Positions 44,791 through 63,870 of a stretch of DNA of 64,000 bases are shown here, piece after piece. Position 1 is the stretch's first letter; every line of letters begins with the position of its first letter. The position numbers were made by a program, and so were the translations under genes. The DNA lies in assembly GCF_000411255.1 (NCBI RefSeq), contig NZ_KE150413.1, positions 1 through 64,000 on the forward strand, in the 5' to 3' direction. This DNA is from Paenibacillus sp. HGH0039. Its GTDB lineage: Bacteria > Bacillota > Bacilli > Paenibacillales > NBRC-103111. The notes below the pieces were generated by a model that was given only the letters and a program-made list of their open reading frames with translations, had not been told where the DNA came from and made no database searches.

Positions 44791-45153
44791 GGGGGCGTTT
44801 TTGGATTCGACGGGGGTAGTTCGAGCATGGGTAGCGGGTAGTGGGGACGCGTCCGCTTCATCAACGCTAAAGCCTATTAAACGGCAAACAACAACAAAAC
44901 TACGCTTTCGCAGCTTAATAACCTGTGAGCGTGCTCCTCTCCTGTATCGCCCATGTGCCGGATGTAGGGGCTAACCTTTAGTGGGATACGCTGTCACATC
45001 TCCGCCTGGGGTGTGCTGAAGAAGACAATCAGGCTGACCTTAGCGAGAGCCGGTTACGGGGCGCTTGCTTGGGTGACATCAAACCCGTGACTACACCCGT
45101 AGAAGCTTATGTGTCGTTATCTTCGGACAGGGGTTCGACTCCCCTCGCCTCCA
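44791..45153 (+). ncRNA. ssrA: Transfer-messenger RNA
   Basis: The tRNA-like ends pair GGGGGCG (44791-44797) with CGCCTCC (45146-45152). The T arm GGGGTTCGACTCCCC is intact and CCA is not encoded. The 5' element TTTTTGGATTCGACGGGGG is typical. The tag reading frame (44884-44916) encodes GKQQQNYAFAA, followed by two TAA codons. With the charged Ala the tag is AGKQQQNYAFAA. The 3' end is repeated several times downstream. Confidence 0.96.
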
Positions 45154-45159
45154 TACACA
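45138..45159 (+). repeat. ssrA 3'-end repeat, copy 1 (genuine tmRNA end)
   Basis: ACTCCCCTCGCCTCCATACACA is the true 3' end of ssrA plus flank and the likely original attachment site. Later copies are at 45338, 51169, 54681 and 61955, with a decayed one near 63830. Confidence 0.75.
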
Positions 45160-45160
45160 C

Positions 45161-45200
45161 AGCAGAAGGTCCCAGCCGAGAGGCTGGGGCCTTTTTGCTG
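45161..45200 (+). terminator. ssrA terminator
   Basis: AAGG-CCCAGCC/GGCTGGG-CCTT around GAGA, with one mismatch, ends in T residues. The outer AGCAG/CTGCT-like bases extend it. This terminator is copied along with the att-like repeats. Confidence 0.92.
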
Positions 45201-45576
45201 TTTGGGGAGGCGGGAGAAGAACCCCGCGGGTTCAGTCCGCGCGGACGAAGCGAAGCGGAGGAGCACGGGATTGCAATCTACTGCTAGGGTTGTCGGCGGA
45301 GGGAAGCTACGTGAGCGGGTTGGATGAGGATTGCGATACTCCCCTCGCCTTCATACACATGATGAGGCATCATGAACGATTTACGAAGCTACTGCAAGAA
45401 GAACTGGGAACAACTCCGTTAAGATCCACGGTTCGATTATTTTCCGAGCTGTACAGCGGCAATGCCGACGATGAGTCGAAGGCGTGAGCCGCTTTTTTGT
45501 TGCTCAGAATTTGTTCAGAATGATGTGATATGGTCAAACGGGCTAAAGTATGAGACTTGGGGAAGGAAGATGAAAG
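45200..45576 (+). other. Spacer after ssrA: duplicated flank and a gene remnant
   Basis: The segment up to about 45331 is repeated, with roughly four-fifths identity by eye, at 51222-51353. After copy 2 of the ssrA end, an open stretch to 45487 could encode a short peptide (RFTKLLQEELGTTPLRSTVRLFSELY) that looks protein-like, but it has no convincing start and matches nothing recognised. Confidence 0.5.
45338..45359 (+). repeat. ssrA 3'-end repeat, copy 2
   Basis: ACTCCCCTCGCCTTCATACACA differs from copy 1 at one base of 22 and lies exactly 200 bases downstream. No tRNA-like body precedes it. Confidence 0.7.
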
Positions 45577-48500
45577 TTGCTGAATAAAGGAAAAACAGCA
45601 AGGAAATTCAATACGAATTTTCCTGCTTGGAGGCAAATGGCTTTTAAGATCATTCGACTAAAATTGTCGTTTTTGTTGCTGTTTAGCACATTTATGTCGA
45701 TCAATTGGGGGATAGAAGCAAATGCAGCACCTGTAACGAGTTCCCTTGATAATTGGTACGTACGGTCTACGGGACAAAATATAAATAGCGTTGCATATGG
45801 CAATGGCACGTATGTGGCGGTGGGGCAAGCTGGAACGATCTTAACCTCCAGTGACGGAATGAGCTGGATGACACACTCGTCGGGCACTAGAGATCTTCTT
45901 AGCGTCATTTACGTTGACGGTATGTATATGGCGGTGGGGGCAGCTGGAACGATTTTGACCTCCAGTGACGGAGTGAGCTGGATGGTCCGCACGTCGGGAA
46001 CCACGAATGATCTTCGTAGAGTCACCTACGGCAACGGCACGTATGTGGCGGTGGGGCAAGTTGGAACGATCTTGACCTCCAGTGACGGAGAGAACTGGAC
46101 GAGCCGCGCGTCGGGCACCACGCAATATCTTTTTGACGTCAGCTACTCCAACGGCACGTATATGGCGGTGGGAGCAGTTGGAACGATATTGACCTCCAGC
46201 GATGGAGCGAGCTGGATGAGCCGCGCGTCGGGAACCACGAATGGCCTATATGGTGTCAACTACGTCAACGGCACGTATGTGGTGGTGGGGTTAGGTGGAA
46301 AGATCTTAACCTCCAGCGACGGAGCGAACTGGACCAGCCGCACGTCGGGAACCACGAACAATCTTATTAGCGTCGCTTACGGCAACGGCACGTATGTGGC
46401 GGTGGGGGTAAGTGGAACGGTATTGACCTCCAGTGACGGCGTAAGCTGGATGACCCGCATGTCGGGCACCACAAATCATCTTGTTGGTGTCAGCTACGTC
46501 AATGGCATGTATATGGCAACGGGGGCAGGTGGAACAATCTTGACCTCCAGTGACGGCGTGAGCTGGACGAGATCCATGTCGGGTGCTACCTTGAATCCTC
46601 TTTACGGCGTCAGCCATGGTAACGGCACGTATGTGGCGGTGGGGTTAGGTGGAGCGATAGTGACCTCCAGTGACGGAGCGAGCTGGACCAGCCGCACGTC
46701 GGGCACTACGTTTCCTTTCTATGGCGTCAGCTACGGCAACGGTACGTATGTGGCGGTGGGGTATGGTGGAAGGATAGTGAACTCCAGTGACGGAGCGGGC
46801 TGGACGAGCCGCACGTCGGGCGTCACGAATAATCTTTCTAGCGTCAGCTACGGCAATGGCACGTATGTGGCGGTGGGGGCAAGCGGAACGATATTGACCT
46901 CCAGTGACGCAGCGAATTGGACGAGCAGTACATCGGGCGTTACGAATGATCTATGGAACATTACTTACATCAACGGTACGTATTTTGCGGTGGGAGCAAG
47001 TGGAACGATCTTGACCTCTAGTGACGGAGCGAGTTGGACGAGACAAACGTCGGGCACTACGAATATTCTTTACGCCGTCAGCTACTACAACGGCACGTAT
47101 GTGGCAGTGGGAGCAGGTGGAACGATATTGACCTCCGGTGACGGAGTGAGCTGGGCGGGCCAAACGTCGAGCACCTCGAATGAACTTCGTGGCGTCGGCT
47201 ACGTCAACGGCACGTTTGTTGTGGTGGGGTTAGGCGGAACGATATTGACCTCCAGTGACGGGGTGAGCTGGACGGGGCGCGTGTCGGGTACCTCGAATGC
47301 TCTTTATGGTATCACCTACGGCAACGACACATATGTGGTGGTGGGATCAGGTGGAATGATTTTGCAATCACCAACAATAGCCGCGCTGACCAACGCGGCC
47401 ACGCCGGGCATTGCTACACAGCCGACGGGCGCAACGGTTAACGAAGGCGACAGCAGCCCGACCTTGAGCGCAGCGGCCAGCGCAAGCGACGGCGGAACGC
47501 TGACCTACCAGTGGTACAGCAATGCGGCGAACAGCACGAACGGCGGCACAGCGATCGTGGGTGCAACAAGCGCAAGCTATGCCGCGCCGACAACACCGGT
47601 CGGCACGACCTACTACTATGTTGTCGTGACGAATACGAACAACAGCGCGAGCGGCACGAAGACGGCAACGGCAACGAGCAACATCGCTGCGGTCACGGTG
47701 AACGCGCTGACCAACGCGGCCACGCCGGGCATTAACACGCAGCCGACGGGCGCCACGGTAAACGAAGGCGACAGCAGCCCGACCTTAATCGTAGCAGCCA
47801 GCGTAAGCGACGGCGGAACGCTGACCTACCAGTGGTACAGCAATGCGGCGAACAGCACGAACGGCGGCACAGCGATCGTGGGAGCAACAAGCGCAAGCTA
47901 TGCCGCGCCGACGACACAGGTCGGCACGACCTACTACTATGTTGTCGTGACGAACACGAACAACGGCGTGAGCGGCACGAAGACGGCAACGGCAACGAGC
48001 AGCATCGCTGCGGTCGCGGTGAACGCGCTGACCAACGCGGCCACGCCGGGCATTGATACGCAGCCGACGGGCGCCACGGTAAACGAAGGCGACAGCAGCC
48101 CGGCCTTGAGCGTAGCAGCCAGCGTAAGCGACGGCGGAGTGCTGTCCTACCAGTGGTACAGCAATACGGCGAACAGCACGAGCGGGGGCACAGCGATCGG
48201 CGGCGCAACAAGCGCAGCCTATGCCGCGCCGACGACACCGGCAGGCACGACCTACTACTATGTTGTCGTGACGAATACGAACAACGGCGTGAGCGGCACG
48301 AAGACGGCAACGGCAACGAGCAGCATCGCTGCGGTCGCGGTGAATGCGCTGACCAACGCGGCCACACCGGGCATTGATACGCAGCCGACGGGCGCCACGG
48401 TAAACGAAGGCGATAGCAGCCCGACCTTGAGCGCAGCAGCCAGCGTAAGCGACGGCGGAGTGCTGTCCTACCAGTGGTACAGCAATACGGCGAACAGCAC

Positions 48501-50874
48501 GAACAGCGGCACGACGATCGTGGGTGCAACAAGCGCAAGCTATGCCGCACCGACGACACCGGTCGGCACGACCTACTACTATGTTGTCGTGACGAATACG
48601 AACAACAGCGTGAGCGGCACGAAGACGGCAACGGCAACGAGCAGCATTGCTGCGGTCACGGTGAACATCGCGCCTACCTATGCGATTGCTCCTATTACTA
48701 ATCAAACGTTAACTGCACTTACTCAAGGTTACGCTCCGGGTACCCAAGAGACAAAAACCATCCATGTAACAAATACCGGTACGAGCGATATATCCAATCT
48801 GTCGGCAACGGTTAGCGGCAATCATGCTAGCGATTTTGTGATTACGCAACCAAGTGCGACTTTAATAAACGGAGCGGCTCCGACAAGCTTTACGGTTAAA
48901 GCGAAAGACGGCTTGCCAGCCGGCACCTATACCGCAACGTTAACGTTATCGGCAACTCATATGACGGGTGTGACGTTTACAGTGACACAAACTGTGAACT
49001 TGCCGAACGCTCTCGCGAATCCGCAAAATCTTGTGGCTACCGGAGGAGACCGTGAGGTTACACTAAATTGGGATACGGTAACGGGAGCGACGTATTACAA
49101 CATTTATATAGCGACTGATTCAAGTCAGTTTAGTAACGCTTCAGTTGTTACCGTCACTTCCTCTACCTACCATGTACAAAACTTGCTAAACGGCACGACC
49201 TATTTCTTTACGGTGAAAGCAGGTAATTCAGGAGGCATGAGTGGGGAATCGAATCAGGCAAACGCAACTCCAGCAACTGTTCCGGCAGCACCAACGAATG
49301 TTTCGGCAGTAGCTGGAAACGGAGAAGCCACCGTTACCTTTACGGCTCCAACCGATAACGGAGGAAGTGCGATTACGGGGTATGAAGTAACAGCTTCATC
49401 AGGGAATGTAGTCGTAACAGGAGCAGCAAGCCCGATTGTTATTACAGGTTTGAGGAATGGAACAAGCTATACGTTTACGGTGAAAGCGATCAATGGTGTA
49501 GGAAAAAGTGTACCTTCCGCTAATACGAATGCGGTCATTCCGCAAACGCCATCCAGTGGCAGCACGGGCTCTAACGATACGCCATCCGCGCCTAGTACTC
49601 CAACAACACCGGAGAAAACGAATGCTGATGTGGATATACTTGTCAACGGTAAAGTGGAGAATGCGGGGACCGTAACGAGAACCCAACGAAACGGTCAAAC
49701 CCTAACAACCGTGTTTGTTGATCAGAAAAAGCTGGAGGACAAGCTCGCGGCGGAAGGTCAAAATGCTGTGGTTGCGATTCTAGTAAACCATAAATCCGAT
49801 GTGGTCGTTGGCTCACTGAACGGTCAGATGGTGAAAAACATGGAGGACAAGCAAGCTGTTCTTGAGATCAAAACCGATCGTGCGACCTATACGATTCCGG
49901 CGCAACAAATCAATATTAACACCCTATCCGAACAAGTCGGCAAGTCGGTAGCCTTGCAAGACATTCAGGTTCAAATCGAAATCGCAGCACCAACAACAGA
50001 TACGGTGAAAGTTATTGAGAACGCGGCAGCCAAGGGAACGTTCACGCTTGTCGCACCGCCGCTAAACTTTACGGTGAAAGGCACCTACGGAGATAAGACT
50101 ATCGAAGTATCGAAGTTCAATGCCTATGTAAAACGAACTATTGCGATTCCAGATGGTGTTGATCCCGGCAAGATTACCACAGGGATTGTTGTTGAAACGG
50201 ACGGAACCGTTCGTCATGTACCGACCAAGATTGTCGTGATTGGCGGCAAATATTACGCCCAAATCAACAGCTTGACGAATAGCACGTATTCTCTCGTCTG
50301 GCATCCGCTCGAATTTAGAGATGTGGCGAATCATTGGGCAAAACAAGCAGTGGACGACATGGGATCGCGGATGGTCATCGATGGTACGGGCAACGGTATG
50401 TTCAGCCCTGACCGCGATATTACCCGCGCTGAGTTTGCAGCCGTCATTGTTCGCGGATTGGGACTCAAGCCGGAGAATGGAGCAACACCATTCTCGGATG
50501 TAAAATCGACAGATTGGTATAGCAGTGTTGTCAATACTGCTTATGCGTATGACTTGATCAGCGGTTTTGAAGATGGCACTTTCCGTCCGATGGACAGGAT
50601 TACGCGGGAACAGGCGATGGTTGTCCTCTCCAAAGCGATGACGATCACTAGACTGAAAGCCGAGCGTTCTGTTCAATCGACAGACGTAATACTTCGTCCT
50701 TATGGAGATACGGCAGCAGTATCTGCATGGGCGCTGAGCAGCGTCGCGGACAATGTACAGGCTGGCATTGTATCAGGAAGAAGCGGCAATGAGCTTGCGC
50801 CAAAGGATTACATTACTAGGGCTGAGGTTTCCAAAATTATTCAGGGACTTTTGCAAAAATCCGGCCTGATTTAA
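45577..50874 (+). CDS. Large repeat-built S-layer-homology surface protein
   Basis: A 1765-residue exported protein anchored by three SLH domains. Order: signal peptide (cleavage near ANA, about residue 50); 13-14 tandem 39-residue repeats (about 69-598; consensus GTYVAVG..GTILTSSDG.SW) that probably form beta-propeller blades; four 107-residue Ig-like repeats (about 604-1031; YQWYSN, TTYYYVVVTNTNN); a further beta domain; two fibronectin type III domains (about 1147-1323); a Ser/Thr/Pro linker; an unassigned region; and SLH domains (about 1579-1765). SLH domains bind pyruvylated wall polymers. The TTG start follows GGGGAAGGAAG; an ATG at 45640 is an alternative. The ligand is unknown. Confidence 0.85.
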   Translation: MLNKGKTARKFNTNFPAWRQMAFKIIRLKLSFLLLFSTFMSINWGIEANAAPVTSSLDNWYVRSTGQNINSVAYGNGTYVAVGQAGTILTSSDGMSWMTHSSGTRDLLSVIYVDGMYMAVGAAGTILTSSDGVSWMVRTSGTTNDLRRVTYGNGTYVAVGQVGTILTSSDGENWTSRASGTTQYLFDVSYSNGTYMAVGAVGTILTSSDGASWMSRASGTTNGLYGVNYVNGTYVVVGLGGKILTSSDGANWTSRTSGTTNNLISVAYGNGTYVAVGVSGTVLTSSDGVSWMTRMSGTTNHLVGVSYVNGMYMATGAGGTILTSSDGVSWTRSMSGATLNPLYGVSHGNGTYVAVGLGGAIVTSSDGASWTSRTSGTTFPFYGVSYGNGTYVAVGYGGRIVNSSDGAGWTSRTSGVTNNLSSVSYGNGTYVAVGASGTILTSSDAANWTSSTSGVTNDLWNITYINGTYFAVGASGTILTSSDGASWTRQTSGTTNILYAVSYYNGTYVAVGAGGTILTSGDGVSWAGQTSSTSNELRGVGYVNGTFVVVGLGGTILTSSDGVSWTGRVSGTSNALYGITYGNDTYVVVGSGGMILQSPTIAALTNAATPGIATQPTGATVNEGDSSPTLSAAASASDGGTLTYQWYSNAANSTNGGTAIVGATSASYAAPTTPVGTTYYYVVVTNTNNSASGTKTATATSNIAAVTVNALTNAATPGINTQPTGATVNEGDSSPTLIVAASVSDGGTLTYQWYSNAANSTNGGTAIVGATSASYAAPTTQVGTTYYYVVVTNTNNGVSGTKTATATSSIAAVAVNALTNAATPGIDTQPTGATVNEGDSSPALSVAASVSDGGVLSYQWYSNTANSTSGGTAIGGATSAAYAAPTTPAGTTYYYVVVTNTNNGVSGTKTATATSSIAAVAVNALTNAATPGIDTQPTGATVNEGDSSPTLSAAASVSDGGVLSYQWYSNTANSTNSGTTIVGATSASYAAPTTPVGTTYYYVVVTNTNNSVSGTKTATATSSIAAVTVNIAPTYAIAPITNQTLTALTQGYAPGTQETKTIHVTNTGTSDISNLSATVSGNHASDFVITQPSATLINGAAPTSFTVKAKDGLPAGTYTATLTLSATHMTGVTFTVTQTVNLPNALANPQNLVATGGDREVTLNWDTVTGATYYNIYIATDSSQFSNASVVTVTSSTYHVQNLLNGTTYFFTVKAGNSGGMSGESNQANATPATVPAAPTNVSAVAGNGEATVTFTAPTDNGGSAITGYEVTASSGNVVVTGAASPIVITGLRNGTSYTFTVKAINGVGKSVPSANTNAVIPQTPSSGSTGSNDTPSAPSTPTTPEKTNADVDILVNGKVENAGTVTRTQRNGQTLTTVFVDQKKLEDKLAAEGQNAVVAILVNHKSDVVVGSLNGQMVKNMEDKQAVLEIKTDRATYTIPAQQININTLSEQVGKSVALQDIQVQIEIAAPTTDTVKVIENAAAKGTFTLVAPPLNFTVKGTYGDKTIEVSKFNAYVKRTIAIPDGVDPGKITTGIVVETDGTVRHVPTKIVVIGGKYYAQINSLTNSTYSLVWHPLEFRDVANHWAKQAVDDMGSRMVIDGTGNGMFSPDRDITRAEFAAVIVRGLGLKPENGATPFSDVKSTDWYSSVVNTAYAYDLISGFEDGTFRPMDRITREQAMVVLSKAMTITRLKAERSVQSTDVILRPYGDTAAVSAWALSSVADNVQAGIVSGRSGNELAPKDYITRAEVSKIIQGLLQKSGLI
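45784..47370 (+). repeat. 117-bp tandem repeats encoding 39-residue blades
   Basis: Thirteen full copies and one partial copy of a 117-bp unit lie inside the SLH protein gene. The segment ACCTCCAGTGACGGAG is nearly unchanged in most copies. Confidence 0.85.
47383..48666 (+). repeat. Four 321-bp direct repeats
   Basis: Units start at 47383, 47704, 48025 and 48346, exactly 321 bp apart and very similar at the DNA level. They encode four Ig-like domains. Such uniformity suggests recent duplication or ongoing exchange. Confidence 0.9.
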
Positions 50875-51106: not shown

Positions 51107-51168
51107 GCTGCCTCCCCAAACATCCTGAGCATCACGCGGCGACGAATTGTGGATTTATCAAGCTATGG

Positions 51169-51222
51169 CTCGCCTCCATACACACAGCAGAAAGGCCCTA
51201 ACCGAGAGACCGGGGCCTTTTT
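51169..51222 (+). repeat. ssrA 3'-end repeat, copy 3, with terminator
   Basis: CTCGCCTCCATACACACAGCAG matches the tmRNA end and flank exactly over 22 bases. A terminator follows, AAAGGCCC/GGGCCTTT with T residues (51191-51222). The motif GCGACGAATTGTGGATTTATC precedes it at 51139. Confidence 0.8.
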
Positions 51223-51515
51223 GCTGTTCCGCGTAGAGGAGGAGAAGCCCGCGGGTCCAGTCCGCGCGGACGGAGCGAAGCGAAGGAGCACGGGATTGCA
51301 ATCAACCGCTGGAATTGTCCGCGTAGGGGTACTGCGTGAGCAGGTTGGATAGAGTTCTTCGTAGACGATCACCTTTTCCACATGGCTGCCGATGAACTTC
51401 TAGATTTCAGGAACCTGACCTACAGATGTGTAATTCTCTCCCCTCACCTGCAATGCGGAATAGCTACAACTGGCGATCCTATTGCTGCTGAGGAGGGACC
51501 TTTACGACAAACGCC

Positions 51516-51587: not shown

Positions 51588-52106
51588 TTAAATTAAATCA
51601 TTTTTGTGCAAAACGTTTAAATAAAATTCATATGCGGGATTCCCTATGTAACCTTCTTCTGGTGGAATACCCTTAAGTATGATCAATTCATCTAACATTT
51701 TTTCGCTTAAACCTTGTATAGTAAACGAAGAAATATACTCCCTATCTGTACTTTCGAGTACTAGTTGGAGGAACTTTCCTTCTTGAATATCTCTCCAGAG
51801 TAACTCAGATTCCGTAATCTCAGAATTTGATATTGGCTCATTAGCATTACACTGCCGAATCTCAGCGTGCATACTCCGTTCATTATCATTAAAGAGAGCA
51901 GAAAGAATTTTACTATCATTTACCCTGTAACACTTCATGATGTTATCATAGTTAACAAGGGGATCTTTCTTCAAATCGTCAACTATTTCTTTATCGATCT
52001 CGATTGTGTTATATTTGTCTCTAAGTATTTTCTCCGCATCTTTCAATGAATACCTGAATGGCAATTTGGATTTCTTTAAAAGCTTATCAAGTTCTTCTAT
52101 TCGCAT
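51588..52106 (-). CDS. Putative immunity protein for the adjacent toxin tail
   Basis: A 172-residue acidic, probably helical cytoplasmic protein of unrecognised family (start MRIEELDKLLKKS). It lies directly behind, and overlaps by 20 bases, a toxin-like C-terminal module. That is the usual arrangement for polymorphic toxin immunity genes. The start at 52106 is six bases from GGGG; ATG at 52118 is an alternative. The function is inferred from position only. Confidence 0.5.
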   Translation of the reverse strand: MRIEELDKLLKKSKLPFRYSLKDAEKILRDKYNTIEIDKEIVDDLKKDPLVNYDNIMKCYRVNDSKILSALFNDNERSMHAEIRQCNANEPISNSEITESELLWRDIQEGKFLQLVLESTDREYISSFTIQGLSEKMLDELIILKGIPPEEGYIGNPAYEFYLNVLHKNDLI

Positions 52107-52518
52107 AAGATTCCCCATTAAAAGAAAGATGTCCACCCACTCTGTTCCATGTATGATAGTGAGTGTAGTAAAAATTACCAGGTATTTGATTGAATGTTAA
52201 CTCAGGGCCAACAGGAATTCTATTCCCACCAGCAACTTTCGCTACTTCTGCTGCTAATGTGGAATTGCTAGACCAAACGTCCTCTCCCCCACTTACAAAC
52301 ATAGGATTAACAAGTCTTCCGACAGCCTGTGGTAAAGTTAGTGAATTTCCAATCCAAAGATTTCCTTGCATAATATTAGCCATATAATGGTCATATCGAT
52401 TATCGTTTCTTAAAGTCGTTGCAATTTCTGAGACTACCACATATGCTACACCACCAATAGTAACTGCTAATGCTGCTAGCAATTGCGAAAGCAACCATTC
52501 ACCTATAATTACGCACAT
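52087..52518 (-). pseudogene. Orphan C-terminal module of a polymorphic-toxin-like protein
   Basis: A 143-residue open stretch with a hydrophobic start (LLSQLLAALAVTIGGVAYVVV) and an end reading NFYYTHYHTWNRVGGHLSFNG. The HYH...GGH pattern resembles toxin tails in RHS and other secreted Bacillales proteins. No delivery domain precedes it: upstream the frame closes after 13 codons, and a different, plus-strand remnant starts 65 bases away. It is probably the tail left from a larger gene. Confidence 0.5.
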
Positions 52519-52582: not shown

Positions 52583-53399
52583 TTGTTCGGACGTATTAAC
52601 CAAATGACTGCAGAATCAAGCGAAGATAGAGGTACACTTTCTAGCCATGCGGTTTTAGCATTCGAAAGTCTAAGGTACCGTGATAATCTTGATGCTTTAG
52701 ATAAAATCTCAGTGGAAAACTTACAGGCTTTGAGTGAAGTATTTGGTAGATTGGATGATTTAGAAGCCTTTCTTTACTATCAGATTATTAAGGAACGTAT
52801 AGAGGTAATTAGAGTACTTCAAGATAAAGTAGATGCTAACGATCTAGAAAAGGTTATTCAAGAACATTTTTTCAACCACCTTTGGTTATTAGATCCTTCA
52901 TGGGAAAGGGCTACAGATTCCGATTACATGGAAGAACGCATAGACTAAGTTTTTGGTGCTCTTGATGCTGACTTAAGTGACGAAGAAAGACGAGCGAGGC
53001 TAGATATTAGGTATAAAAATGTATCGTGGACTATTAGGAATTAGGTAAGCAAATAGATAAGTATAGGTCCGCTATGCAAAGAATTCTTGATGAAACAGGA
53101 GCCAAGGAATCACTTGAATTCATCTGCGTATTGGGAAAACCTATGCGAGGGTGGGAAGATTCCCGTAAAAGAGTAGAGGACGTTGCTAAACTCAAGAGTC
53201 AAGACGCACGTGTAGTACTTTATTCTGAATTAATTCGGAATGCGATGCAAGCACATATCAAAGTTATCTAAGCAGAAGCAGGGATGCAGGGCAGGTATAT
53301 GATTTGATGAGAGATATTCAATCAGGGGCAAAGGTAATCGACTCAGAGCATACTATAGTAACGGATGAAGTTGCTGCTTCTTCTGAAAAATCATTGTAA
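52583..53399 (+). pseudogene. Broken gene: C-terminal region of an ATPase/nuclease-type protein
   Basis: Three blocks read as one protein interrupted by lesions. Block one (to 52948) contains FFNHLWLLDPSWERATDSDYMEERID, then a TAA in place of a codon, and continues VFGALDADLSDEERRARLDIRY. Block two (53041-53271) reads GKQIDKYRSAMQRILDETG and FICVLGKPMRGWED. Block three, in another frame, reads DAGQVYDLMRDIQ and ends at 53399. The order recalls the C-terminal PD-(D/E)xK-like part of large HATPase proteins, with the catalytic core apparently deleted at about 53020-53045. Family recall is from memory. Confidence 0.5.
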
Positions 53400-54641: not shown

Positions 54642-54650
54642 CTAATACAC

Positions 54651-56014: not shown

Positions 56015-56122
56015 GGTATTTATTGCCGATAAGTAAATATTTGTGTCCCATATTACTTATTTCTCTTTGAAACAGCGGTTGTCTAATGAGAAGAAAAAGA
56101 CCCTGAATCACTTTGATGTGCG

Positions 56123-56182
56123 CCCCTAAAATAGATGTTAGAAAAACCCTTGGGTTAATCTAATCTACTTTAGGGGTGTTTT
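56123..56182 (+). terminator. Long hairpin between precursor and maturation genes
   Basis: CCCCTAAAATAGAT (56123-56136) pairs with ATCTACTTTAGGGG (56163-56176). Inner arms TTAGA/TCTAA and AACCC/GGGTT lead to a two-base loop, giving about 25 bp in all. TGTTTTG follows. It probably ends most precursor transcripts while letting some read into the enzyme genes; an insertion-sequence end is the alternative. Confidence 0.75.
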
Positions 56183-56301
56183 GCGCTGGCGACGAAAAGA
56201 CAGAAGCTCAACGTTACAGTCATGAGGGACAAATAGCTGTACATAAGATTATTTGTGAAGTGCTGGAGCAGATTGCGAACAGCCTACGGAGGAGGAGTAG
56301 A

Positions 56302-58260
56302 ATGACAAATTTGAACCCTTCGATGCGTCTAAAGGTTAAAAGGGATACATTTTTTCTTCCAGATTTGAGCGGTGTGTATTTTCGAAATAATGTAAGCTCG
56401 TTCCGCATGGAAGGTGAGGGGATTGATCAGTGGATTGAAACACTGATACCGATATTCAATGGGGAGCATAGATTGGAGGATTTGACTGACGGATTGCCGG
56501 ACCAACACCGGAACCAGGTGTATGAAATTGCAGAAGTTTTGTATCGTAACGGTTTTGCTCGGGATGTGAGCCAGGATACTCCACATCAATTGCCGGAAGA
56601 GGTTCTCACAAAGTATGCTTCTCAAATTGAATTTTTGGATCATTTCGGTGATTCGGGCGCGTACCGGTTTCAGTCTTATCGTCAGGCCAAAGTATTGCTG
56701 GTCGGCTCGGGTCCATTTTTGATCTCGGCGATTTCTGCGCTGCTTGAATCCGGATTGCCCAAGTTTTATGTACTGCTCTCGGGTACGGATTCGACTGATC
56801 GGCAGCGGATGGCAGAGCTGGTGGCACATGCCCGTATAACGGACTCCGAGGTGGGAGTAGAGGAGGTTACCTTGCAAAAGGAGGGGGAGAGTTGCTGGCG
56901 GGAGGCTGTGAGGCCGTTTGATTCGATTCTGTTTGTATCACGGGAGAACGATGCCCGGGAACTTAGAGTTCTTCATGCAGCTTGCCGGGAGGAGCAGAAG
57001 TTGTTTCTTTCTGCTGTATGCCTGCAACAGGTGGGTATGGTGGGACCGTTGGTTCATCCGGATTTTGAGGGATGTTGGGAGTCAGCGTGGCGTCGCCTGC
57101 ACCAATCCGCAATTTCTAAAGACCCGGAACTGCATACCTTTTCTTCAACAGCGGGAGCGATGTTGGCCAATGTGAGCGTGTTTGAGCTGTTTAAAAAGAT
57201 GACGGGAGCGGACGATTCGGAACAGAACAATCGATTTTTTCTGCTTAATCTGGAGACTTTGGAAGGAAAATGGCATTCTTTCCTGCCCCATCCGCTTGTG
57301 ACCGGACTTAGCGCACCTGAATGGATTCAAGATTTCGATCTTCAGCTCAAACGGAGATCAAACAAGAGTGAGCATGGATTGATTCCTTATTTCAGCCGAT
57401 TGACTTCGGCGGAATCAGGGATTTTTCATGTTTGGGAGGAGGGGGATTTAACGCAGCTTCCGCTCTCTCAGTGTCGCGTTCAGGCCATCGATCCGTTATC
57501 GGAAGGACCCGCTGGGCTGCTGCCGGATATGATTTGTACCGATCTGACGCATGAGGAGGCGCGACGGGAAGCGGGGCTGGCCGGGATTGAAGCCTATGTG
57601 TCGCGAATGGCCGGTTTGCTCGTTTCAATGCTTCCTTCCCATCAGGGAGAAGAGGCCGGCAGGATAGAACCGCAGGAATTTATCGGTATCGGAGCGGGAG
57701 AGGTGGTTGCGGAAGGCATTTGCCGAGGGTTGCAAAGGTGTTTGGAGGAAGTGCTGGGCAAGCAACAGGCGTCTCAGCTGCCTTTGGTTTCTCGGGTACA
57801 GTTGCGTACGGTAGAAGATAAACACTGTCTTTTTTATTTGGAAGCATTGACGACGATGAAGGGAGCGCCGGTGATCGCCTTGGGAGAGGAAGTGTCTGGG
57901 TTTCCTGTGGTGTGGGTCCGTACGAGTGATTGCTGGTATCGCAGTGTAGGCTTAAATGTGACCCTGGCGCTGCGGAAAGCATTGCAGCAGGCTCTGCTGG
58001 GGGCGCAAAACCAACCGGATGGCTTCAAATCGCAAGCATTGGAGTTTTCGCCCGTGCGTTTAAAAGAACAGGCACCGCTAAATCTTGAGATCCCTGCATG
58101 TGAAGCAACGTCACAACCAGAGGTTCTACAGTCCGCCTTACAAGTTTTGAATCGAAACCGTAAGAGGCTCCTGGTCTTCGATCTGGCGGCAGAACCGTTC
58201 TTGAAAGAGGAAGTGGCCGGGGTGTTTGGTGTAGTGCTGCGAGAGGAGGGATCCCGGTGA
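56302..58260 (+). CDS. Thiazole-containing bacteriocin maturation protein (ThiF-like)
   Basis: A 652-residue protein of the family linked to heterocycloanthracin-type peptides. Residues about 15-95 look like a winged-helix peptide-recognition element (FNGEHRLEDLTDGL...VYEIAEVLYRNGFARD). A ThiF/E1-like Rossmann segment follows (QAKVLLVGSGPFLISAISALL, residues 129-149). No CxxC zinc pair is seen. The C-terminal half is poorly characterised. It probably binds the leader and assists cyclodehydration. GGAGGAG places the start at 56302. It ends in a GTGA overlap with the next gene. Confidence 0.82.
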   Translation: MTNLNPSMRLKVKRDTFFLPDLSGVYFRNNVSSFRMEGEGIDQWIETLIPIFNGEHRLEDLTDGLPDQHRNQVYEIAEVLYRNGFARDVSQDTPHQLPEEVLTKYASQIEFLDHFGDSGAYRFQSYRQAKVLLVGSGPFLISAISALLESGLPKFYVLLSGTDSTDRQRMAELVAHARITDSEVGVEEVTLQKEGESCWREAVRPFDSILFVSRENDARELRVLHAACREEQKLFLSAVCLQQVGMVGPLVHPDFEGCWESAWRRLHQSAISKDPELHTFSSTAGAMLANVSVFELFKKMTGADDSEQNNRFFLLNLETLEGKWHSFLPHPLVTGLSAPEWIQDFDLQLKRRSNKSEHGLIPYFSRLTSAESGIFHVWEEGDLTQLPLSQCRVQAIDPLSEGPAGLLPDMICTDLTHEEARREAGLAGIEAYVSRMAGLLVSMLPSHQGEEAGRIEPQEFIGIGAGEVVAEGICRGLQRCLEEVLGKQQASQLPLVSRVQLRTVEDKHCLFYLEALTTMKGAPVIALGEEVSGFPVVWVRTSDCWYRSVGLNVTLALRKALQQALLGAQNQPDGFKSQALEFSPVRLKEQAPLNLEIPACEATSQPEVLQSALQVLNRNRKRLLVFDLAAEPFLKEEVAGVFGVVLREEGSR

Positions 58261-60200
58261 GCGCTGCTGTTGTGATTGTTGGAGAAGGGGTATTGGCGGA
58301 TTGTGTGTGCGGAGAACTGTCAACCCAATTTGAGGTCGTTCGTCAGAGCGATTTCGAGGCAGGAGTACCGGAAGCGGCGGATTTGGTTCTGGTGTTGAAC
58401 GATGCCTGGAATCCTTACATTCATCAAAAGGCAGAAGAGCTGCTGCAGCCAGCCGGCATCCCTTGGCTGCGCGGTTTCGTTTCATTTGGCGAGGGCGTGA
58501 TCGGACCGCTGGTTCGTCCGGGTACACGAGGGTGCTCCCAATGTGCAGACACGCGGCGCCTCATGGCGGGACGCGAACGCAAGGAAATGCTGGGGCTGCA
58601 GCAGAGACTGATGACACGCGGGGGAGTAGAGCGTGATGCATGGGCGTCACGTACAGGACTTTTGCAGGTGGGTCACTTGCTGGCCGTGGAGGCACGGAAG
58701 GTGTTACAAGGCCAAACGGTTCACTCGGCAGAGAGGGTGTTTTTGATCAACCTGAAAACACTGGAGAGTACACTTCACCTCGTTCTCCCTGACCCGCTGT
58801 GTCCGGTTTGCAGTCAATTGCTTGATGATTCGTCGGCGGCAGCGGATATCTCGTTGCAGCCCAGTCCGAAGATCAGCGCAGACAGTTACCGCTGCCGCGG
58901 GATGGATGAGCTGAATAAAGTTCTGACCCAAGACTATCTGGATTACCGGACCGGCTTTTTGAATGGGAAAATGGTTGACCTCAAGTCGCCGTTTGCTGAT
59001 GTGAGTGTGAATCTGCCGTTGCTTGCAGAGGACGTGGGAACGGCAGGTCGGACACATTCCTATGCGGTGAGCGAGTTGACCGCTATATTGGAAGGGTTGG
59101 AGCGGTACTGCGGTCTGGCACCCCGAAGCAAACGGACGGTAATCCGTGATAGCTACCGCAATCTGAAGGATCAAGCGTTCGATCCTGTGAAAGTGGGGGA
59201 GCACACGAGAGAACAGTATGCTCAACCGGGGGCTCCGTATACACCGTTTAATCCTGACCACCCAATCGATTGGGTATGGGGGTATTCGTTTTTGCAAGAG
59301 CGTCCGATTCTAGTTCCGGAACAGCTTGCCTATTACAGTATGGGCTGCGGGCACAGCTTTGTGTTTGAAACTTCCAACGGATGCGCATTAGGCGGAAGTT
59401 TGGAGGAGGCTATTTTTTACGGCATATTGGAAGTGGTGGAGCGGGATTCGTTTCTGATGACTTGGTATGCGCAGCTGCCGCTCCCGCGCCTTGACCTTTA
59501 TTCCGCTAATGACCAAGAATTGCAGTTGATGATCGATCGTTTGCGGGCGGTGGCGGGGTTTGATGTGCATTTCTTTAACTCAACGATGGAGAATGGAATC
59601 CCAAGCGTTTGGGGAGTGGCGAAAAACAGGAAACAAACCGGAGTGAATCTCATCTGTGCGGCCGGGGCTCATCCGGATCCGGTACGGGCCGTGAAAAGCG
59701 CGGTTCATGAGTTGGCCGGCATGGTGCAGTCGCTCGACGAGAAATTGGATACGAACCGAGAGACGTATGTTCGAATGTTCCATGATTCATCCCTGGTGCA
59801 GCAGATGGAGGATCATTCACTGCTCTACGGACTGCCGCAAGCGCAGGAGCGCCTGCAATTTCTGCTGGATGACAATCGCCCGCTGCGAACGTTTGAAGAG
59901 GAATTCAAGCGAGAGGCAAGGCATGCCGATTTAACGGATGATCTGAAGGACCTTCTTAAGGCATTCCACCGACTGAATCTTGATGTGATCGTGGTGGATG
60001 TGACAGCGCCGGAAATCATGCGTAATGGACTGCATTGCGTGAAGGTGCTGATCCCCGGGATGCTGCCGATGACATTCGGACATCACTTTACCCGCTTAGC
60101 AGGGCTGGAGCGGGTGCTCCGGGTACCCGTGGAACTCGGGTATGCGGAGAAGCCGCTGAGGCTGGAAGATCTCAATCCACATCCGCATCCGTTTCCATAG
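58257..60200 (+). CDS. TOMM cyclodehydratase: E1-like/YcaO fusion protein
   Basis: A 647-residue fusion. The N-terminal E1-like partner (1-200) has the zinc pairs CSQC (about 93-96) and CPVC (about 181-184). The C-terminal YcaO domain (about 220-647) has the ATP-site segments TAILEGLERY (near 275) and GILEVVERD (near 385). The end HPHPFP fits the PxPxP tail needed by azoline-forming YcaO enzymes. It uses ATP to turn Cys of the precursor into thiazolines. GAGGAGGGATCCC precedes a GTG start overlapping the previous stop, so the two proteins are translationally coupled. Confidence 0.88.
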   Translation: MSAAVVIVGEGVLADCVCGELSTQFEVVRQSDFEAGVPEAADLVLVLNDAWNPYIHQKAEELLQPAGIPWLRGFVSFGEGVIGPLVRPGTRGCSQCADTRRLMAGRERKEMLGLQQRLMTRGGVERDAWASRTGLLQVGHLLAVEARKVLQGQTVHSAERVFLINLKTLESTLHLVLPDPLCPVCSQLLDDSSAAADISLQPSPKISADSYRCRGMDELNKVLTQDYLDYRTGFLNGKMVDLKSPFADVSVNLPLLAEDVGTAGRTHSYAVSELTAILEGLERYCGLAPRSKRTVIRDSYRNLKDQAFDPVKVGEHTREQYAQPGAPYTPFNPDHPIDWVWGYSFLQERPILVPEQLAYYSMGCGHSFVFETSNGCALGGSLEEAIFYGILEVVERDSFLMTWYAQLPLPRLDLYSANDQELQLMIDRLRAVAGFDVHFFNSTMENGIPSVWGVAKNRKQTGVNLICAAGAHPDPVRAVKSAVHELAGMVQSLDEKLDTNRETYVRMFHDSSLVQQMEDHSLLYGLPQAQERLQFLLDDNRPLRTFEEEFKREARHADLTDDLKDLLKAFHRLNLDVIVVDVTAPEIMRNGLHCVKVLIPGMLPMTFGHHFTRLAGLERVLRVPVELGYAEKPLRLEDLNPHPHPFP

Positions 60201-60253
60201 GTATAAAAACGTGGCGTGGTGAGCCACCCTCGTTCATATAAGGAGGGACAAGG

Positions 60254-61834
60254 ATGAGTCTGGAGGCGTTTCTGGACAATTTGCATTATGACATTGACAA
60301 GACCAAACCTCCGGACTTGGCGGTGGATTGGGAAGACGGGCCGCTTGCATATAAGCTCTATCGCGGTTTGCCTGTGGTTCCGTTATCTCCGGAAATCCCG
60401 CTGACGCTCGAAGGTGGTGAAGCTCCAATGAAGCCCGACCTTCGCCGGGTGGGTCATTTCCTCTGGTATGTATTCGGGCTCACTCAATTGTCCCAGTCCG
60501 TTCTTGCCTCGAATTCCATGGTACAAACGATGGGCCTACTGCAGATGTACCGACGGTTTGCTCCCTCCGGGGGAGCGTTATATCCGAATGAATTATATGT
60601 GTATCTGAAGATAGAGGAATTGCCTGCAGGGGTATATCATTATGATGTGGCACACCACCGCTTAGTGTTGCTGCGCGAAGGCAACTTCGATTCATATTTA
60701 GCCGGGGCTATGGGTAATCGCTATGACGCTTCGGCTTGCTTTGGCACTGTTTTTGTATCGACCATGTTTTGGAAAAATTTCTTTAAATACAATGATTTTT
60801 CCTACCGCCTGCAAGGACTGGATGCGGGTGCGCTGATCGGGCAGCTCTTGGAGGTAGCCAAACGGTTTGGCTTTGCGTCGGGAGTGTATTTCCGGTTTCT
60901 CGATCGGGCCGTGAGTTATCTTCTCGGGATATCCGAACAAGAGGAAAGTGTTTATTCGGTAATTCCGTTGTCTGTGGAGCCAGCGATCTCTTGGTTTGCC
61001 AATGGGAATGAGGGAGAGGGGAGTGTCTCCGCTGCCGAATTATGCCGGGAGTTGCCAACGGTTCAGCATGACCATTACGTCCGGTCCCGGAGGGTTAATG
61101 AATTTCCGATGCTGATCAAAATGAACGAAGCATCCCTATTGGAATCGCTTCGATCGATACCGCGACCCGGAGAGAAGAAGATCGCTCACTGCGGGGGGCA
61201 TGTGGTGGTTCTGCCCTATGTGAAGCGATTGTCGTATGATCTGGCGTCAGTAAGCCGAAGGCGGTATTCACCGGACAGTGATTTTAGGATGAGCCAGGTA
61301 AGCCAAGAGCAACTGGCCTTACTGCTGCGGGAGGCCACGGCCTCCTTCAGATATCGGAATGATTTGGATGGAGCGCGTGAAAACCCTGTTTCCCGCGTCT
61401 CGCTATACGTATGTCTGTATAACGTTGAGGGTATTCCGGAGGGTGCTTACCATTATGACAGTGCTGCTCATGCGTTAAGATCAATACGTCAAGGGGATCA
61501 TCGGCTCCAGTTGCAGGAAGGAATGCCTTCCGATAATGTGAACCTGTTCCAAGTACCGCTATGCTTTCATATTGCAGGGGACAAGGATCATCTTGCAACA
61601 GCGATGGGGTATAGGGGATACCGCATCCAACAGATGGAAGCGGGGATGCTCCTGCAGCGTCTGTTGTTAGCAGCATCGGCTATCGGATTAGGAGGACATC
61701 CGCTCCTCGGATTTGATGCACGATTATGTGATGAGATCTACAAGATGACTTCGCAAGGATTAACGAGCCTAATCCAAATCCCGATAGGATCCTATCGTCA
61801 TAGCCCCCGCTTAACGGGGGGATTGCATGGCTAG
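60254..61834 (+). CDS. SagB-type FMN-dependent dehydrogenase, two nitroreductase-like halves
   Basis: A 526-residue enzyme expected to oxidise thiazolines to thiazoles with FMN. The first nitroreductase-like half has RFAPSGGALYPNELYVYLK (101-119). The second half (about 330-526) has EGIPEGAYHYDSAAHAL and AIGLGGHPLLGFD. Both halves repeat the GxYHYD strand (AGVYHYD and EGAYHYD), so it is a duplicated SagB. AGGAGGGACAAGG precedes the start, 53 bases after the YcaO gene. No exporter or immunity gene follows in the window. Confidence 0.87.
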   Translation: MSLEAFLDNLHYDIDKTKPPDLAVDWEDGPLAYKLYRGLPVVPLSPEIPLTLEGGEAPMKPDLRRVGHFLWYVFGLTQLSQSVLASNSMVQTMGLLQMYRRFAPSGGALYPNELYVYLKIEELPAGVYHYDVAHHRLVLLREGNFDSYLAGAMGNRYDASACFGTVFVSTMFWKNFFKYNDFSYRLQGLDAGALIGQLLEVAKRFGFASGVYFRFLDRAVSYLLGISEQEESVYSVIPLSVEPAISWFANGNEGEGSVSAAELCRELPTVQHDHYVRSRRVNEFPMLIKMNEASLLESLRSIPRPGEKKIAHCGGHVVVLPYVKRLSYDLASVSRRRYSPDSDFRMSQVSQEQLALLLREATASFRYRNDLDGARENPVSRVSLYVCLYNVEGIPEGAYHYDSAAHALRSIRQGDHRLQLQEGMPSDNVNLFQVPLCFHIAGDKDHLATAMGYRGYRIQQMEAGMLLQRLLLAASAIGLGGHPLLGFDARLCDEIYKMTSQGLTSLIQIPIGSYRHSPRLTGGLHG

Positions 61835-61922
61835 AAGAGCATGGGCAGAGCTTCTGTGAATCTGGTAGTCTTTTAGAGACAGCAAAAGAGATGCCGTTAG
61901 AAAAACATCCGAATCAGCATAT

Positions 61923-62003
61923 TGCGGCGAATTGTGGTTTTACAAAGCTGCAGTTCGCCTCCATACACAGCAGAAGGTCCAGCCGAGAGGCTGGGTTTTT
62001 TTT
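61923..62003 (+). repeat. ssrA 3'-end repeat, copy 5, with end motif and terminator
   Basis: The end motif (61923-61943) is followed by TCGCCTCCATACACAGCAGAAGG (61955-61977) and a terminator CCAGCC-GAGA-GGCTGG with eight T residues (61979-62003). The terminator is nearly identical to that of ssrA. Confidence 0.8.
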
Positions 62004-62277: not shown

Positions 62278-62299
62278 TAGGTTGGGAGGGGGGAGATAG

Positions 62300-62839
62300 A
62301 TGGAAACGGAGTACCTAAAATATTTTCAAGAAGTCGATAATACGGAATTGTACAATCTGATGACTCAATATGGGGACGATGTGTGGAGGTATGCCTATGC
62401 ATTGACCGGTAATTACGAACAATCCAATGATATTGCGCAAGAAGTCTTTCTTAAGGTTCATTTGAAGATGTCTACCTTTAGAGGACAATCCTCTTTCAAA
62501 ACCTGGTTGTTTTCCATTACGAGAAATATTGCGATTAATGAAATGAAATCCAGTTATTTTCGAAGGATTTTGCTGTTTGGGAATGTGAAAAGCACTCGGA
62601 CAGTACAGTCAGCCGAGGTTTCCTATATGGCGAATCAGGCGGCTGCAGATCTCCGTGAAATTATTATGGGTTTATCTCGAAAACTAAGAGAGGTTCTTAT
62701 TCTAAGTTTGGAACATGAGTTGACTATTCAAGAAATAGCGGAATTACTTCACATATCTGAAGGAACGGTAAAGTCAAGAATGAGCAGAGCGCGTAAGGAA
62801 GTTGAAAAGAGATGGGGGAATCTGAACCATGAATCGTGA
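62300..62839 (+). CDS. ECF-subfamily RNA polymerase sigma factor
   Basis: A 179-residue sigma factor with region 2 (GDDVWRYAYALTGNYEQSNDIAQEVFLKVH and the -10-reading FRGQSSFKTWLFSITRNIAINEM, about 25-92) and region 4 (LSRKLREVLILSLEHELTIQEIAELLHISEGTVKSRMSRAR, about 120-165). GGGAGGGGGGAGATAG precedes the ATG. It overlaps the next gene by 11 bases. The regulon is unknown; only its own promoter-like site is visible. Confidence 0.92.
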   Translation: METEYLKYFQEVDNTELYNLMTQYGDDVWRYAYALTGNYEQSNDIAQEVFLKVHLKMSTFRGQSSFKTWLFSITRNIAINEMKSSYFRRILLFGNVKSTRTVQSAEVSYMANQAAADLREIIMGLSRKLREVLILSLEHELTIQEIAELLHISEGTVKSRMSRARKEVEKRWGNLNHES

Positions 62840-63755
62840 GAAACCGAATTGGGCAGCGTTGGTTAAGGCAAGCTCCGTCGGAAGAGACGTATTCACTGAA
62901 CAGATGAAACAAACGGTGCTTACCCGGGTTGAACAGAATCAAAGAAAGAAACTGAAAATCCCGTTTATTTATATGACTGCTCCGCTGGCAGGACTTCTGA
63001 TCTGCCTCCTGCTCTTTCCGGTCTTTGATAGTTTGCCGGCAGTCTTTCAAACAATGGAGAAGTCGATAATGGGAGCCAACGGAACTTCCAGCGAAGACAT
63101 CGCCCTGCATTATGAGCCCGCAAAGGAACTGTCTGCCATCCCTGATACAGATAAGGGAATTAGGGGATATACTTTGTCGCGGCTGCCGTTGACGTCTGTA
63201 CATGTAAAAGAGACGGTGTCTATTGAAGGAATCGGCAAGTACATGGATTACATTAAATCGGACGAGGATTCAATCTCTTATTTCGGATTTCAGATTTTCA
63301 ACCATCCTGGTTCTACCGAGGATGAGTTTTACGAGATTGGCTATGGAAAAATGAGTGAAGCGAAACTTCAAAAAAGTGATGCTTTTGGTTTGATGGATCT
63401 TCGACTGGATGGCAAATGCGGCCCCGAAAGAAGATGTGTGTATTGGATTGCCTTAAACCAAGATGAGGTTGTGGCCTACGAACAAATGGATGCATGGACC
63501 ATTTACGAACAAGACTTGGATAAGGATGGGGTAACCGAGGTTGTCGCATCGACCTATGCCAAAGAAATCTATATTTACAAAAATATAAAAGGCCAGATCC
63601 AATCGGTCGATGTTCAAGCGGCGTTGAAGGCTGGATATGGAGATGCGGTAACTTATAACCCGGATAACCAAGTTTTTCAGATCACCGGTAAGGGTGGAAC
63701 GAAAAAATATCGCTATGTCACAGGAGCGGATATGTTCCGTCAAGTGCACGAATAG
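62829..63755 (+). CDS. Membrane-bound partner of the ECF sigma factor (putative anti-sigma factor)
   Basis: A 308-residue protein with a cytoplasmic N terminus (1-42), one membrane helix (about 45-65, MTAPLAGLLICLLLFPVF) and a large external part of unrecognised family. It overlaps the sigma gene, as anti-sigma factors do. It lacks the HxxxCxxC zinc motif of ZAS anti-sigma factors. The external part contains two beta-rich blocks and the Asp-rich stretch YEQDLDKDGVTEV, which might bind calcium. The role is inferred from gene order and topology. Confidence 0.65.
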   Translation: MNREKPNWAALVKASSVGRDVFTEQMKQTVLTRVEQNQRKKLKIPFIYMTAPLAGLLICLLLFPVFDSLPAVFQTMEKSIMGANGTSSEDIALHYEPAKELSAIPDTDKGIRGYTLSRLPLTSVHVKETVSIEGIGKYMDYIKSDEDSISYFGFQIFNHPGSTEDEFYEIGYGKMSEAKLQKSDAFGLMDLRLDGKCGPERRCVYWIALNQDEVVAYEQMDAWTIYEQDLDKDGVTEVVASTYAKEIYIYKNIKGQIQSVDVQAALKAGYGDAVTYNPDNQVFQITGKGGTKKYRYVTGADMFRQVHE

Positions 63756-63785
63756 GGGAGGATGCAGTTGGACATTTGTCATGGC

Positions 63786-63870
63786 TGCGGCGAGTTTATG
63801 GATTTACCGAGCTGAGTCTCGTTTTATACCATGCAGAAGGTCTCGGCGGAACGGCGCCTTTTTGCTGTTC
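63786..63870 (+). repeat. Decayed ssrA-end repeat, copy 6
   Basis: GCGGCGAGTTTATGGATTTACCGAGC (63786-63811) is a degenerate end motif. GCAGAAGGTCTCGGC...GGCGCCTTTTTGCTGTT (63833-63869) matches the ssrA terminator with several changes. The CTCGCCTCC core is not recognisable. Confidence 0.5.

Follow-up and report, generated by a model that had tools for sequence, protein, structure and literature searches.

In the window, the whole stretch of 64,000 nucleotides analysed here, the array downstream of the tmRNA gene ssrA is very probably made of stacked segments that were integrated by large serine recombinases (LSRs) using the 3′ end of ssrA as attB. This reading draws on the sites themselves, their occurrence in the family, LSR genes beside ssrA in relatives, coding-type variation of a conserved arm standing before the ssrA repeats, one empty site and one segment edge at a core, all of which are observed. 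Successive integrations at ssrA, with the att sites left and the integrases gone, had been proposed by the first-pass annotation; this fits best, with the amendment that the enzyme would be an LSR and that a trace of it remains. The target gene, the repeat copies and the sites are given below.

44791..45153, + strand: ssrA (tmRNA gene), the proposed integration target (ARAGORN, Rfam RF00023; tag peptide GKQQQNYAFAA)
45144..45343, + strand: ssrA 3′ core, terminator and flank, the putative right half of the chromosomal attachment site (alignment of the ~200-nt block)
45338..45359, + strand: second core ACTCCCCTCGCCTTCATACACA, attL-like left edge of the first cargo segment (self-BLAST, block alignment)
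51113..51182, + strand: attR-type site, putative recombinase arm (antisense of the LSR tail) and ssrA core (profile E 4.3e-20)
51169..51353, + strand: second copy of core, terminator and flank (84% over 183 nt to 45144-45325)
51355..51438, − strand: LSR gene remnant, C-terminal part, residues 466-493 of a relative (tblastn)
53460..53506, + strand: putative recombinase arm without ssrA core (profile E 8e-7)
54626..54696, + strand: attR-type site, arm and core, terminator truncated (profile E 1.1e-15)
61903..61968, + strand: attR-type site, arm and core (profile E 9e-15; identity to genome G001 ends at 61963)
63784..63900, + strand: decayed arm, core and terminator (BLAST 74% over 73 nt; profile only E 1.5)

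Copies of the ssrA 3′ end were recovered by self-BLAST at 45338-45359 (22 nt), 51169-51350 (84% over 183 nt), 54681-54722 (88% over 43) and 61955-62028 (86% over 77), along with the decayed copy at 63833-63900 (74% over 73 nt). These are all five positions at which the annotation had placed a repeat of the ssrA end with its terminator, but the terminator is missing at 45338 and truncated at 54681. The 45338 copy consists of the 22-nt ssrA end only, with no terminator and no arm before it, and is the far end of the ~200-nt block 45144-45343, which ends in this second core in an alignment of five same-genus genomes, one of them cut by a contig end. The motif reported before four copies is clear before 51169, 54681 and about 61954 and only decayed before 63833, while the extra lone motif at 53481 was confirmed as the arm at 53460..53506. 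The reported duplication of the flank after the ssrA terminator was also borne out, as 45213-45325 recurs at 51238-51350 with 85% identity over 113 nt. Beyond 64 kb a further ssrA 3′-end copy lies at 66531-66579, so the array extends past the window.

A whole-site profile built from 27 sites in 19 other regions, none of them in the own genome, was run over contig positions 1 to 84,700; the reversed sequence, used as control, gave nothing better than E 2.7. Besides the sites listed above it returned a weaker site beyond the window at 66476 (E 0.0026), the back of the 61903 palindrome (0.019), 7295-7307 (0.31) and weaker matches. The 16-nt motif taken alone is weak evidence for sites, with 4 matches at three or fewer mismatches against 0.91 expected, a number reached in 2 of 100 shuffles. 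Searching the whole genome at two or fewer mismatches placed 4 of 5 core matches and 4 of 6 arm matches within the ssrA locus; with the patterns run backwards as control, the core gave 0 matches and the arm 3, which puts the 2 arm matches outside the locus at chance level, and in its own genome the arm is above chance only at the ssrA locus. Of 104 genomes, 7 contain the composite pattern of arm and core and 0 its backwards form; the exact composite is missing in the four other same-genus genomes, where the arms have at least one change. Separately, phage origin was considered, and blastn of 61890-62060 against a phage collection gave no match.

These counts bear on the reading of the arm as a small transposable repeat, non-autonomous and interspersed, which is common near ssrA by chance. 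Peptide matches to the arm at E up to 1, weak ones counted, occur in 64 of 99 family genomes, in several cases in other genera on contigs without ssrA, and G018 has an arm 139 kb, and G010 one 165 kb, downstream of ssrA, so an interspersed family away from ssrA, named by the annotation as evidence against integration, has a partial counterpart in relatives but not in the own genome. The typed sites share the orientation of ssrA in 44 of 44 cases across 11 regions holding ssrA, the composite is absent in backwards form, and the own-genome copies rise above chance only at ssrA, all of which argues against an interspersed repeat and leaves it hardly any probability.

That the repeats spread without site-specific recombination, through tandem duplications at the end of ssrA and homologous recombination, is very improbable. 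The ~200-nt block is tandem in G003, with core starts near 1022, 1229, 1439 and 1649, so duplication does occur at the ssrA locus; against this reading, the segments between the sites are unrelated to each other and differ between species, the arm is not in ssrA itself and has a coding signature, and one edge and one empty site lie at a core.

The edges were examined in same-genus genomes. The segment 64428-66532 is absent from G001 and G004 and has its right edge at the decayed core; against G004 the difference spans 64417-66526, and it could also be a deletion in the common ancestor of G001 and G004. In the bacteriocin segment the identity to G001 ends at the core, at 61963, and the left edge, at about 55400, does not coincide with the 54681 core, so some segment edges are not clean. 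G004 retains 48693-52172 in the same order, spanning the 51169 site. The pattern that the annotation had set against its own proposal, segments inherited as blocks with no empty sites, is therefore seen for 48693-52172 in G004 but not for 64428-66532 or the edge of the bacteriocin segment.

The recombinase itself was found in relatives. LSR matches at E 1e-60 or better occur in 10 of 103 family genomes. In G042, G051, G059 and G048 the LSR gene is full-length, immediately follows the 3′ end of ssrA and is convergent with ssrA, which is separated from the LSR match by 21-22 nt; in G081 a full-length LSR adjoins ssrA sequence, as read from the frame. The LSRs of G051, G059, G048 and G081 have 74-83% identity to that of G042 over 500 residues, and the domains are Resolvase, Recombinase and zinc ribbon (Pfam). 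Paenibacillus qinlingensis is an example of a species with the full-length gene beside ssrA. An opposite-strand tmRNA gene lies within 1.5 kb 3′ at 36 of the best 80 LSR loci from the genome_contigs collection, a set that also includes relatives which would target tRNA-Ala, -Met, -Gln and -Glu genes. A 140-aa Resolvase-domain gene adjoins the LSR in G042, with related genes in G051 and G059 and no separate gene found in G048. The remnant at 51355-51438, found by tblastn against regions from relatives (E 3.6e-4, 61% over 28 aa), consists of 28 residues. PF07508 has no match in the own genome, so nothing here is movable by an LSR today.

It is very improbable that the accretion is due to a tyrosine integrase whose arm site is the conserved arm, even though ssrA is a common target of tyrosine integrases, the usual kind for tRNA/tmRNA islands, and a PF00589 protein lies just downstream of ssrA in G074. 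No PF00589 match falls within the array stretches of G000-G004, and in 13 further genomes, among the matches listed, only that of G074 falls in an array stretch. Serine attP sites are inverted repeats with a central core, and the site found here is of this form; the arm, moreover, varies like the coding sequence of a serine recombinase tail.

For the LSR reading, the sequence of the arm suggests that it is the 3′ end, about the last 20 codons, which the LSR gene lacks. The reverse complement of the "CGGCGAATTGTGG" arm encodes GGEPWLGKSTIRRRVMLRMFGEVA and then a stop. In G074 a natural junction connects it in frame to an LSR fragment; the LSR there is broken, with another stop upstream of the junction, and no LSR gene that is intact and ends in an arm-coded tail was found. 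For the codon test 74 peptide matches at E < 0.5 were collected in the regions examined, 65 sites were left after removing those with E > 0.06, short edges and double hits, and 9 more with less than 60% identity over codons 7-24 were removed to give 56. Mismatches in these by codon position were 159/99/275, and the synonymous fraction was 0.484, whereas re-dealing the same substitutions gave 0.276 +/- 0.019; with one site per region (n=19), the version through which alone relatedness was handled, it was 0.539 against 0.276 +/- 0.031. For the arms of G000/G001/G004b alone (n=4) the fraction was 0.400 against 0.282 +/- 0.065, a coding signal within chance, and all three window arms read in the test have a broken frame.

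The tail peptide was also compared with the last 24 residues of 27 native LSRs, where its score was equalled by only 1 of 2000 shuffles, while a control antisense-ssrA tail was reached by 1508 of 2000. An earlier comparison with 24 hand-picked of 34 loci, 13 kept by tail length and 10 scored, had given 0 of 2000 (antisense control 96 of 2000); the tail-length filter favours the result, so the comparison was repeated on all 34 loci, which are those without a tRNA/tmRNA found, less 4 without a stop in the locus and 3 sisters. Two other readings of the arm were put aside. A chromosomal target gene ('gene X') that ends in the arm was dropped as a reading because the open frame at the arm has only 16-157 codons among the matches listed and because of the in-frame join to the LSR tail; for the arm as RNA (hairpin, tmRNA-like end), Rfam at gathering cut-offs found ssrA only.

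In the proposed mechanism an LSR would recognise the 3′ end of ssrA as attB, and attP would be an inverted repeat (TTGTGGATTT ... AAATCCACAA) with GGCT|CGCCTCCA at its centre, located within the LSR gene at its 3′ end. Integration would split attP, placing the P′ half with the LSR gene beside ssrA and the P half, encoding the last ~20 LSR codons, at the far segment edge, and would thereby swap the C-terminus of the LSR. Each arm with core in the window would then be a far segment edge (attR), and the LSR genes would have been lost afterwards with one trace left while the cargo was retained. We infer the recombination reaction, the exact crossover, the order of insertion and the relevance of the tail for activity.

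The closest system is that of the Dehalococcoides ssrA-specific islands (DsiB type), described by McMurdie et al. 2011 (PMC3146451). They stand in tandem downstream of ssrA, repeats of the ssrA 3′ end mark their limits, and a conserved motif closely precedes the repeats. A serine recombinase of ~540 aa is encoded next to ssrA on the reverse strand, its gene overlapping attL, and many of the islands lack it. Such islands also have a second, smaller serine recombinase (DsiA) and a module with ParB, Mom and a tRNA-Gly-like sequence. According to the same account the recombinase gene in all cases continues into attL and its stop codon is unclear, and it is suggested that the enzyme is perhaps fully functional only on the circle or beside an island supplying a 3′ gene fragment. 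The present array has the same tandem segments bounded by ssrA 3′-end repeats (self-BLAST, profile), the motif (arm) upstream of the repeat and not matching ssrA, and, in relatives, a ~540-aa serine recombinase gene that overlaps attL beside ssrA, on the reverse strand, of which the window has the 28-residue remnant. Likened by description, it differs in phylum, in cargo and in a core of ~16 nt against 20, and further in that the arm, whose variation is of the coding type, is the proposed 3′ end of the recombinase gene and that relatives carry series of segments ending in the arm.

In CIMEs, according to a review (PMC5704250), the integration genes are lost, the att sites are kept and later integrations stack them at the end of the target gene. 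The kept att sites and the integration genes lost in the own genome agree with this; unlike CIMEs, the array is ascribed to a serine recombinase whose own gene contains attP, and no conjugation or mobilisation genes were seen in the larger genes scanned. The target of SCC is rlmH, whereas the target here is ssrA. The likeness to SCC/CcrAB, which is by description (in part from PMC3146451), is of a large serine recombinase and composite element arrays at the 3′ end of one essential gene. From an integron, which has the tyrosine integrase IntI beside an array with attC sites, the array differs in the lack of PF00589 matches in the array stretches of G000-G004 and in arms which vary like a serine-recombinase tail. 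In mycobacteriophage BPs the gene containing attP is the repressor and the integrase is a tyrosine enzyme, whereas the altered gene here would be the recombinase itself. The likeness to the integration-dependent immunity of BPs, the subject of PMC4557955, is that attP is inside a gene and integration alters the C-terminus of the product. Among open-licence literature on C-terminus swapping, ssrA accretion and serine-recombinase cassette arrays, nothing was judged closer than PMC3146451.

The arm looks like the missing 3′ end which the account in PMC3146451 leaves open. If this is true, these LSRs alter their own C-terminus upon integration, recombinase surveys using the integrated form would give wrong C-termini, past integrations at Firmicutes tRNA/tmRNA loci can be traced by fossil arms, and the series of segments found in relatives, some with defence-type cargo, would be a serine-recombinase route to gene-cassette gathering. 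A more tentative and rather doubtful extension is a serine-recombinase counterpart of the integron, in which the right end of a cassette might be a half-site also encoding the last 20 LSR codons, the last cassette might complete the LSR gene at excision, element and cassettes might be selected together, and the C-terminal swap might serve to switch between the free and the integrated form.

The cargo between the sites is as follows.

45577..50874, + strand: 1765-aa surface protein with SLH and Fn3 domains (Pfam)
51588..52518, − strand: two small genes, 51588-52136 (conserved in G001 and G004) and 52087-52518
52583..52948, + strand: fragment of a BbrUII/HgiDII-type restriction enzyme (NCBIfam NF050001)
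53685..54641, + strand: 5′-nucleotidase family protein (Pfam PF06189)
54847..61834: DUF3888 protein and thiazole/oxazole-modified bacteriocin cluster (Pfam, NCBIfam) with precursor at 55691, ThiF-like at 56176, SagD-like at 58257 and SagB-like at 60254
62300..63755, + strand: ECF-type sigma factor (62300-62839) and a second co-oriented gene (NCBIfam)

The two small genes have no match in Pfam, NCBIfam or PADLOC, the NF050001 match covers 120 of 659 positions and is far under the cut-off, and the bacteriocin precursor scores 1 bit above its cut-off. Pfam and NCBIfam scans of the larger genes gave no conjugation or mobilisation genes in the window cargo. Past the window, the stretch 65772-66449 has 83% DNA identity to G036, for which SmpB has 90% protein identity over 135 residues, and identity alone does not decide on horizontal transfer of this stretch. 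PADLOC was run on six proteins; among the four from the window only the restriction fragment was matched, one G042 protein matches Old (E 1.6e-94) and another matches Aga-type restriction models. A homologue of the 5′-nucleotidase family protein precedes a site in G103, and the related elements in other genera hold series of segments of 0.8-5.8 kb, each terminating in an arm.

The array at ssrA, the tmRNA gene and integration target of the window, belongs to a known kind and has decayed. The window opens contig C2, in a genome of 6.36 Mb from the Paenibacillus family, and these features are used below:

44791-45153, ssrA
52583-52948, probably the remains of a defence gene, matching part of a BbrUII/HgiDII-type restriction enzyme
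55691-61834, thiazole/oxazole-modified bacteriocin cluster, with a heterocycloanthracin/sonorensin-type precursor having Cys repeats and ThiF-like, SagD-like and SagB-like enzymes

The ssrA 3' end (the core, CTCGCCTCCATACACA) is repeated at 45344, 51169, 54681 (shortened), 61954 and 63833 (decayed), as the first-pass annotation had described, and again past the window at 66531. A motif, the arm (CGGCGAATTGTGG...), precedes the 51169, 54681 and 61954 copies at an almost constant spacing and stands without a core at 53481. These four arms were each recovered at E <= 1e-6 by a site profile trained on 27 sites from 19 other regions, none of them from this genome. The arm at 66476, past the window, scored E 0.0026; the best match in the reversed sequence, used as control, was E 2.7. 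The decayed copy at 63784 reached only E 1.5. In the surface (SLH) protein stretches at 45785-47374 and 47382-48644, internal repeats were seen of 117 nt (12 overlapping registers) and 321 nt (4 copies, 92-94% identical over 300 nt).

The exact pattern of arm, spacer and core was found in 7 of 104 family genomes, covering 5 of 22 genera; written backwards, it is absent from all 104. The four other genomes of the same genus have altered copies and not the exact pattern. The peptide read from the reverse complement of the arm has matches in 64 of 99 family genomes, with weak matches up to E 1 counted. All 44 typed sites in the 11 regions having ssrA in the fetched stretch are oriented as ssrA. 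Some sites lie on contigs lacking ssrA, and others far downstream of it (165 kb in G010 and 139 kb in G018, both of the family).

A large serine recombinase (LSR) lies directly 3' of ssrA on the opposite strand in four relatives (G042, G051, G059 and G048) and adjoins ssrA sequence in G081. It carries Resolvase, Recombinase and zinc-ribbon domains (Pfam), and the known structures most similar to it in sequence are those of SPbeta YokA and of the TP901-1 integrase catalytic domain. Of 103 family genomes, 10 have a match at E <= 1e-60, in several cases a partial one. Within 1.5 kb of the LSR 3' end, a tmRNA gene lies on the opposite strand in 36 of the best 80 relatives kept from a wider contig search, many of which are metagenome bins; in 10 more the gene found there is a tRNA-Ala, -Met, -Gln, -Glu or -Pro gene. 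The window's own genome has no such LSR at 1e-60 and no PF07508 match, but residues 466-493 are still recognisable at 51355-51438 (E 3.6e-4), adjoining the duplicate of the ssrA flank. In G042 a small Resolvase-domain protein (oriented 3033-3455; L068, reverse) adjoins the LSR and, by eye, lacks a serine where it aligns with the catalytic serine region; related genes are present in G051 and G059.

The arm is most likely the LSR's own 3' end, because the LSR frame enters antisense ssrA in the integrated form (...VVDLIDGGEGSRTPVRK... in G042) and finishes in the arm, as ...VVDLHYGGEPWLGKSTIRRRVMILMFWDVA and a stop, at a natural junction of arm and P' (the half with the LSR gene) in the relative G074, whose LSR copy is itself broken by a stop upstream of the last 98 codons. 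Two other comparisons point the same way. Over 56 arms, differences at codon positions 1, 2 and 3 number 159, 99 and 275, and the synonymous fraction is 0.484, where re-dealing these substitutions gives 0.276 +/- 0.019. The signal is present in inner (0.523, n=30) and terminal (0.460, n=17) sites alike; in the four usable arms of G000 (the window's genome), G001 and G004b alone, the excess is not above chance. The tail peptide was compared with the last 24 residues of LSR relatives at 27 of the 34 loci where no tRNA or tmRNA gene was found beside the LSR (four without a stop and three sisters being dropped), and only 1 of 2000 shuffles fitted as well; the antisense-ssrA tail, as control, was matched by 1508 of 2000. 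A stop lies 30-40 codons past the match end in 16 of the 30 LSR loci having one, and by our count 32 codons past it at the G074 junction. Sites were classed as attP-like if they had both inverted-repeat arms; there are 8, and in every one the arms are 30 nt apart.

For the ssrA islands of Dehalococcoides, McMurdie et al. (PMC3146451) describe a recombinase that overlaps attL and has an unclear stop codon, and suggest that its full function may require the circular form. The arm may be the missing piece of that recombinase gene. Exchange of the C-terminus may be general in this LSR family, because relatives beside tRNA genes (L120, L121, L122, L133, L142, L143, L148 and L157) also read into antisense tRNA. 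The Moorella phage MCACPph1 record (L202, OR602863) appears to hold an integrated form, because its annotated integrase C-terminus resembles antisense tmRNA (GGGGGSRTPVRR).

To the right of the LSR in G042, G059, G051 and G048 stand several segments of 0.8-5.8 kb, most with one or two genes, each ending in an arm and then a second conserved sequence with GAACCCTTGTCC or a variant. Such series occur also in G103 and G030, on contigs whose fetched part lacks ssrA, giving at least 32 inner sites over all series. Of 22 inner sites measured, 20 have their inverted repeats 41 nt apart, which exceeds the attP spacing by 11 nt. The cargo includes an Old-family protein. On the boldest reading, the series would be a serine-recombinase cassette system. 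In the open-licence literature searched, no earlier description of the tail-exchange evidence and the segment series was found.

The segment 64428-66532 is absent from G001 and G004, of the same genus, and its right edge falls within a few bases of the decayed core beside the arm. The bacteriocin segment is 93% identical in G001 and stops there at 61963, within a core, but on the left its edge, near 55400, is not at one. In G004 the stretch 48693-52172, with the 51169 site in it, is retained in unchanged order at 87%, and therefore some segments are, by this comparison, inherited as a group. In G036, of another genus, the gene pair that precedes 66476 is likewise found directly before a site (83% DNA identity), and G103 has a homologue of the 5'-nucleotidase that precedes 54653, placed in this way too (46% over 302 residues).

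In 4 of 5 same-genus genomes the order after ssrA is terminator, a flank of about 150 nt and a second core, the G004 contig ending inside this block, and the material after the second core differs among G000, G001 and G003. The second core looks like a secondary target which spares ssrA. In G003 (L016, reverse; positions counted in the direction of ssrA) the block of core, terminator and flank is tandemly repeated after ssrA near 1022, 1229, 1439 and 1649 with almost identical flank copies, and two tandem, nearly complete ssrA copies were seen at G018:C1:3874959-3875809 and at G047:C14:22757-23605.
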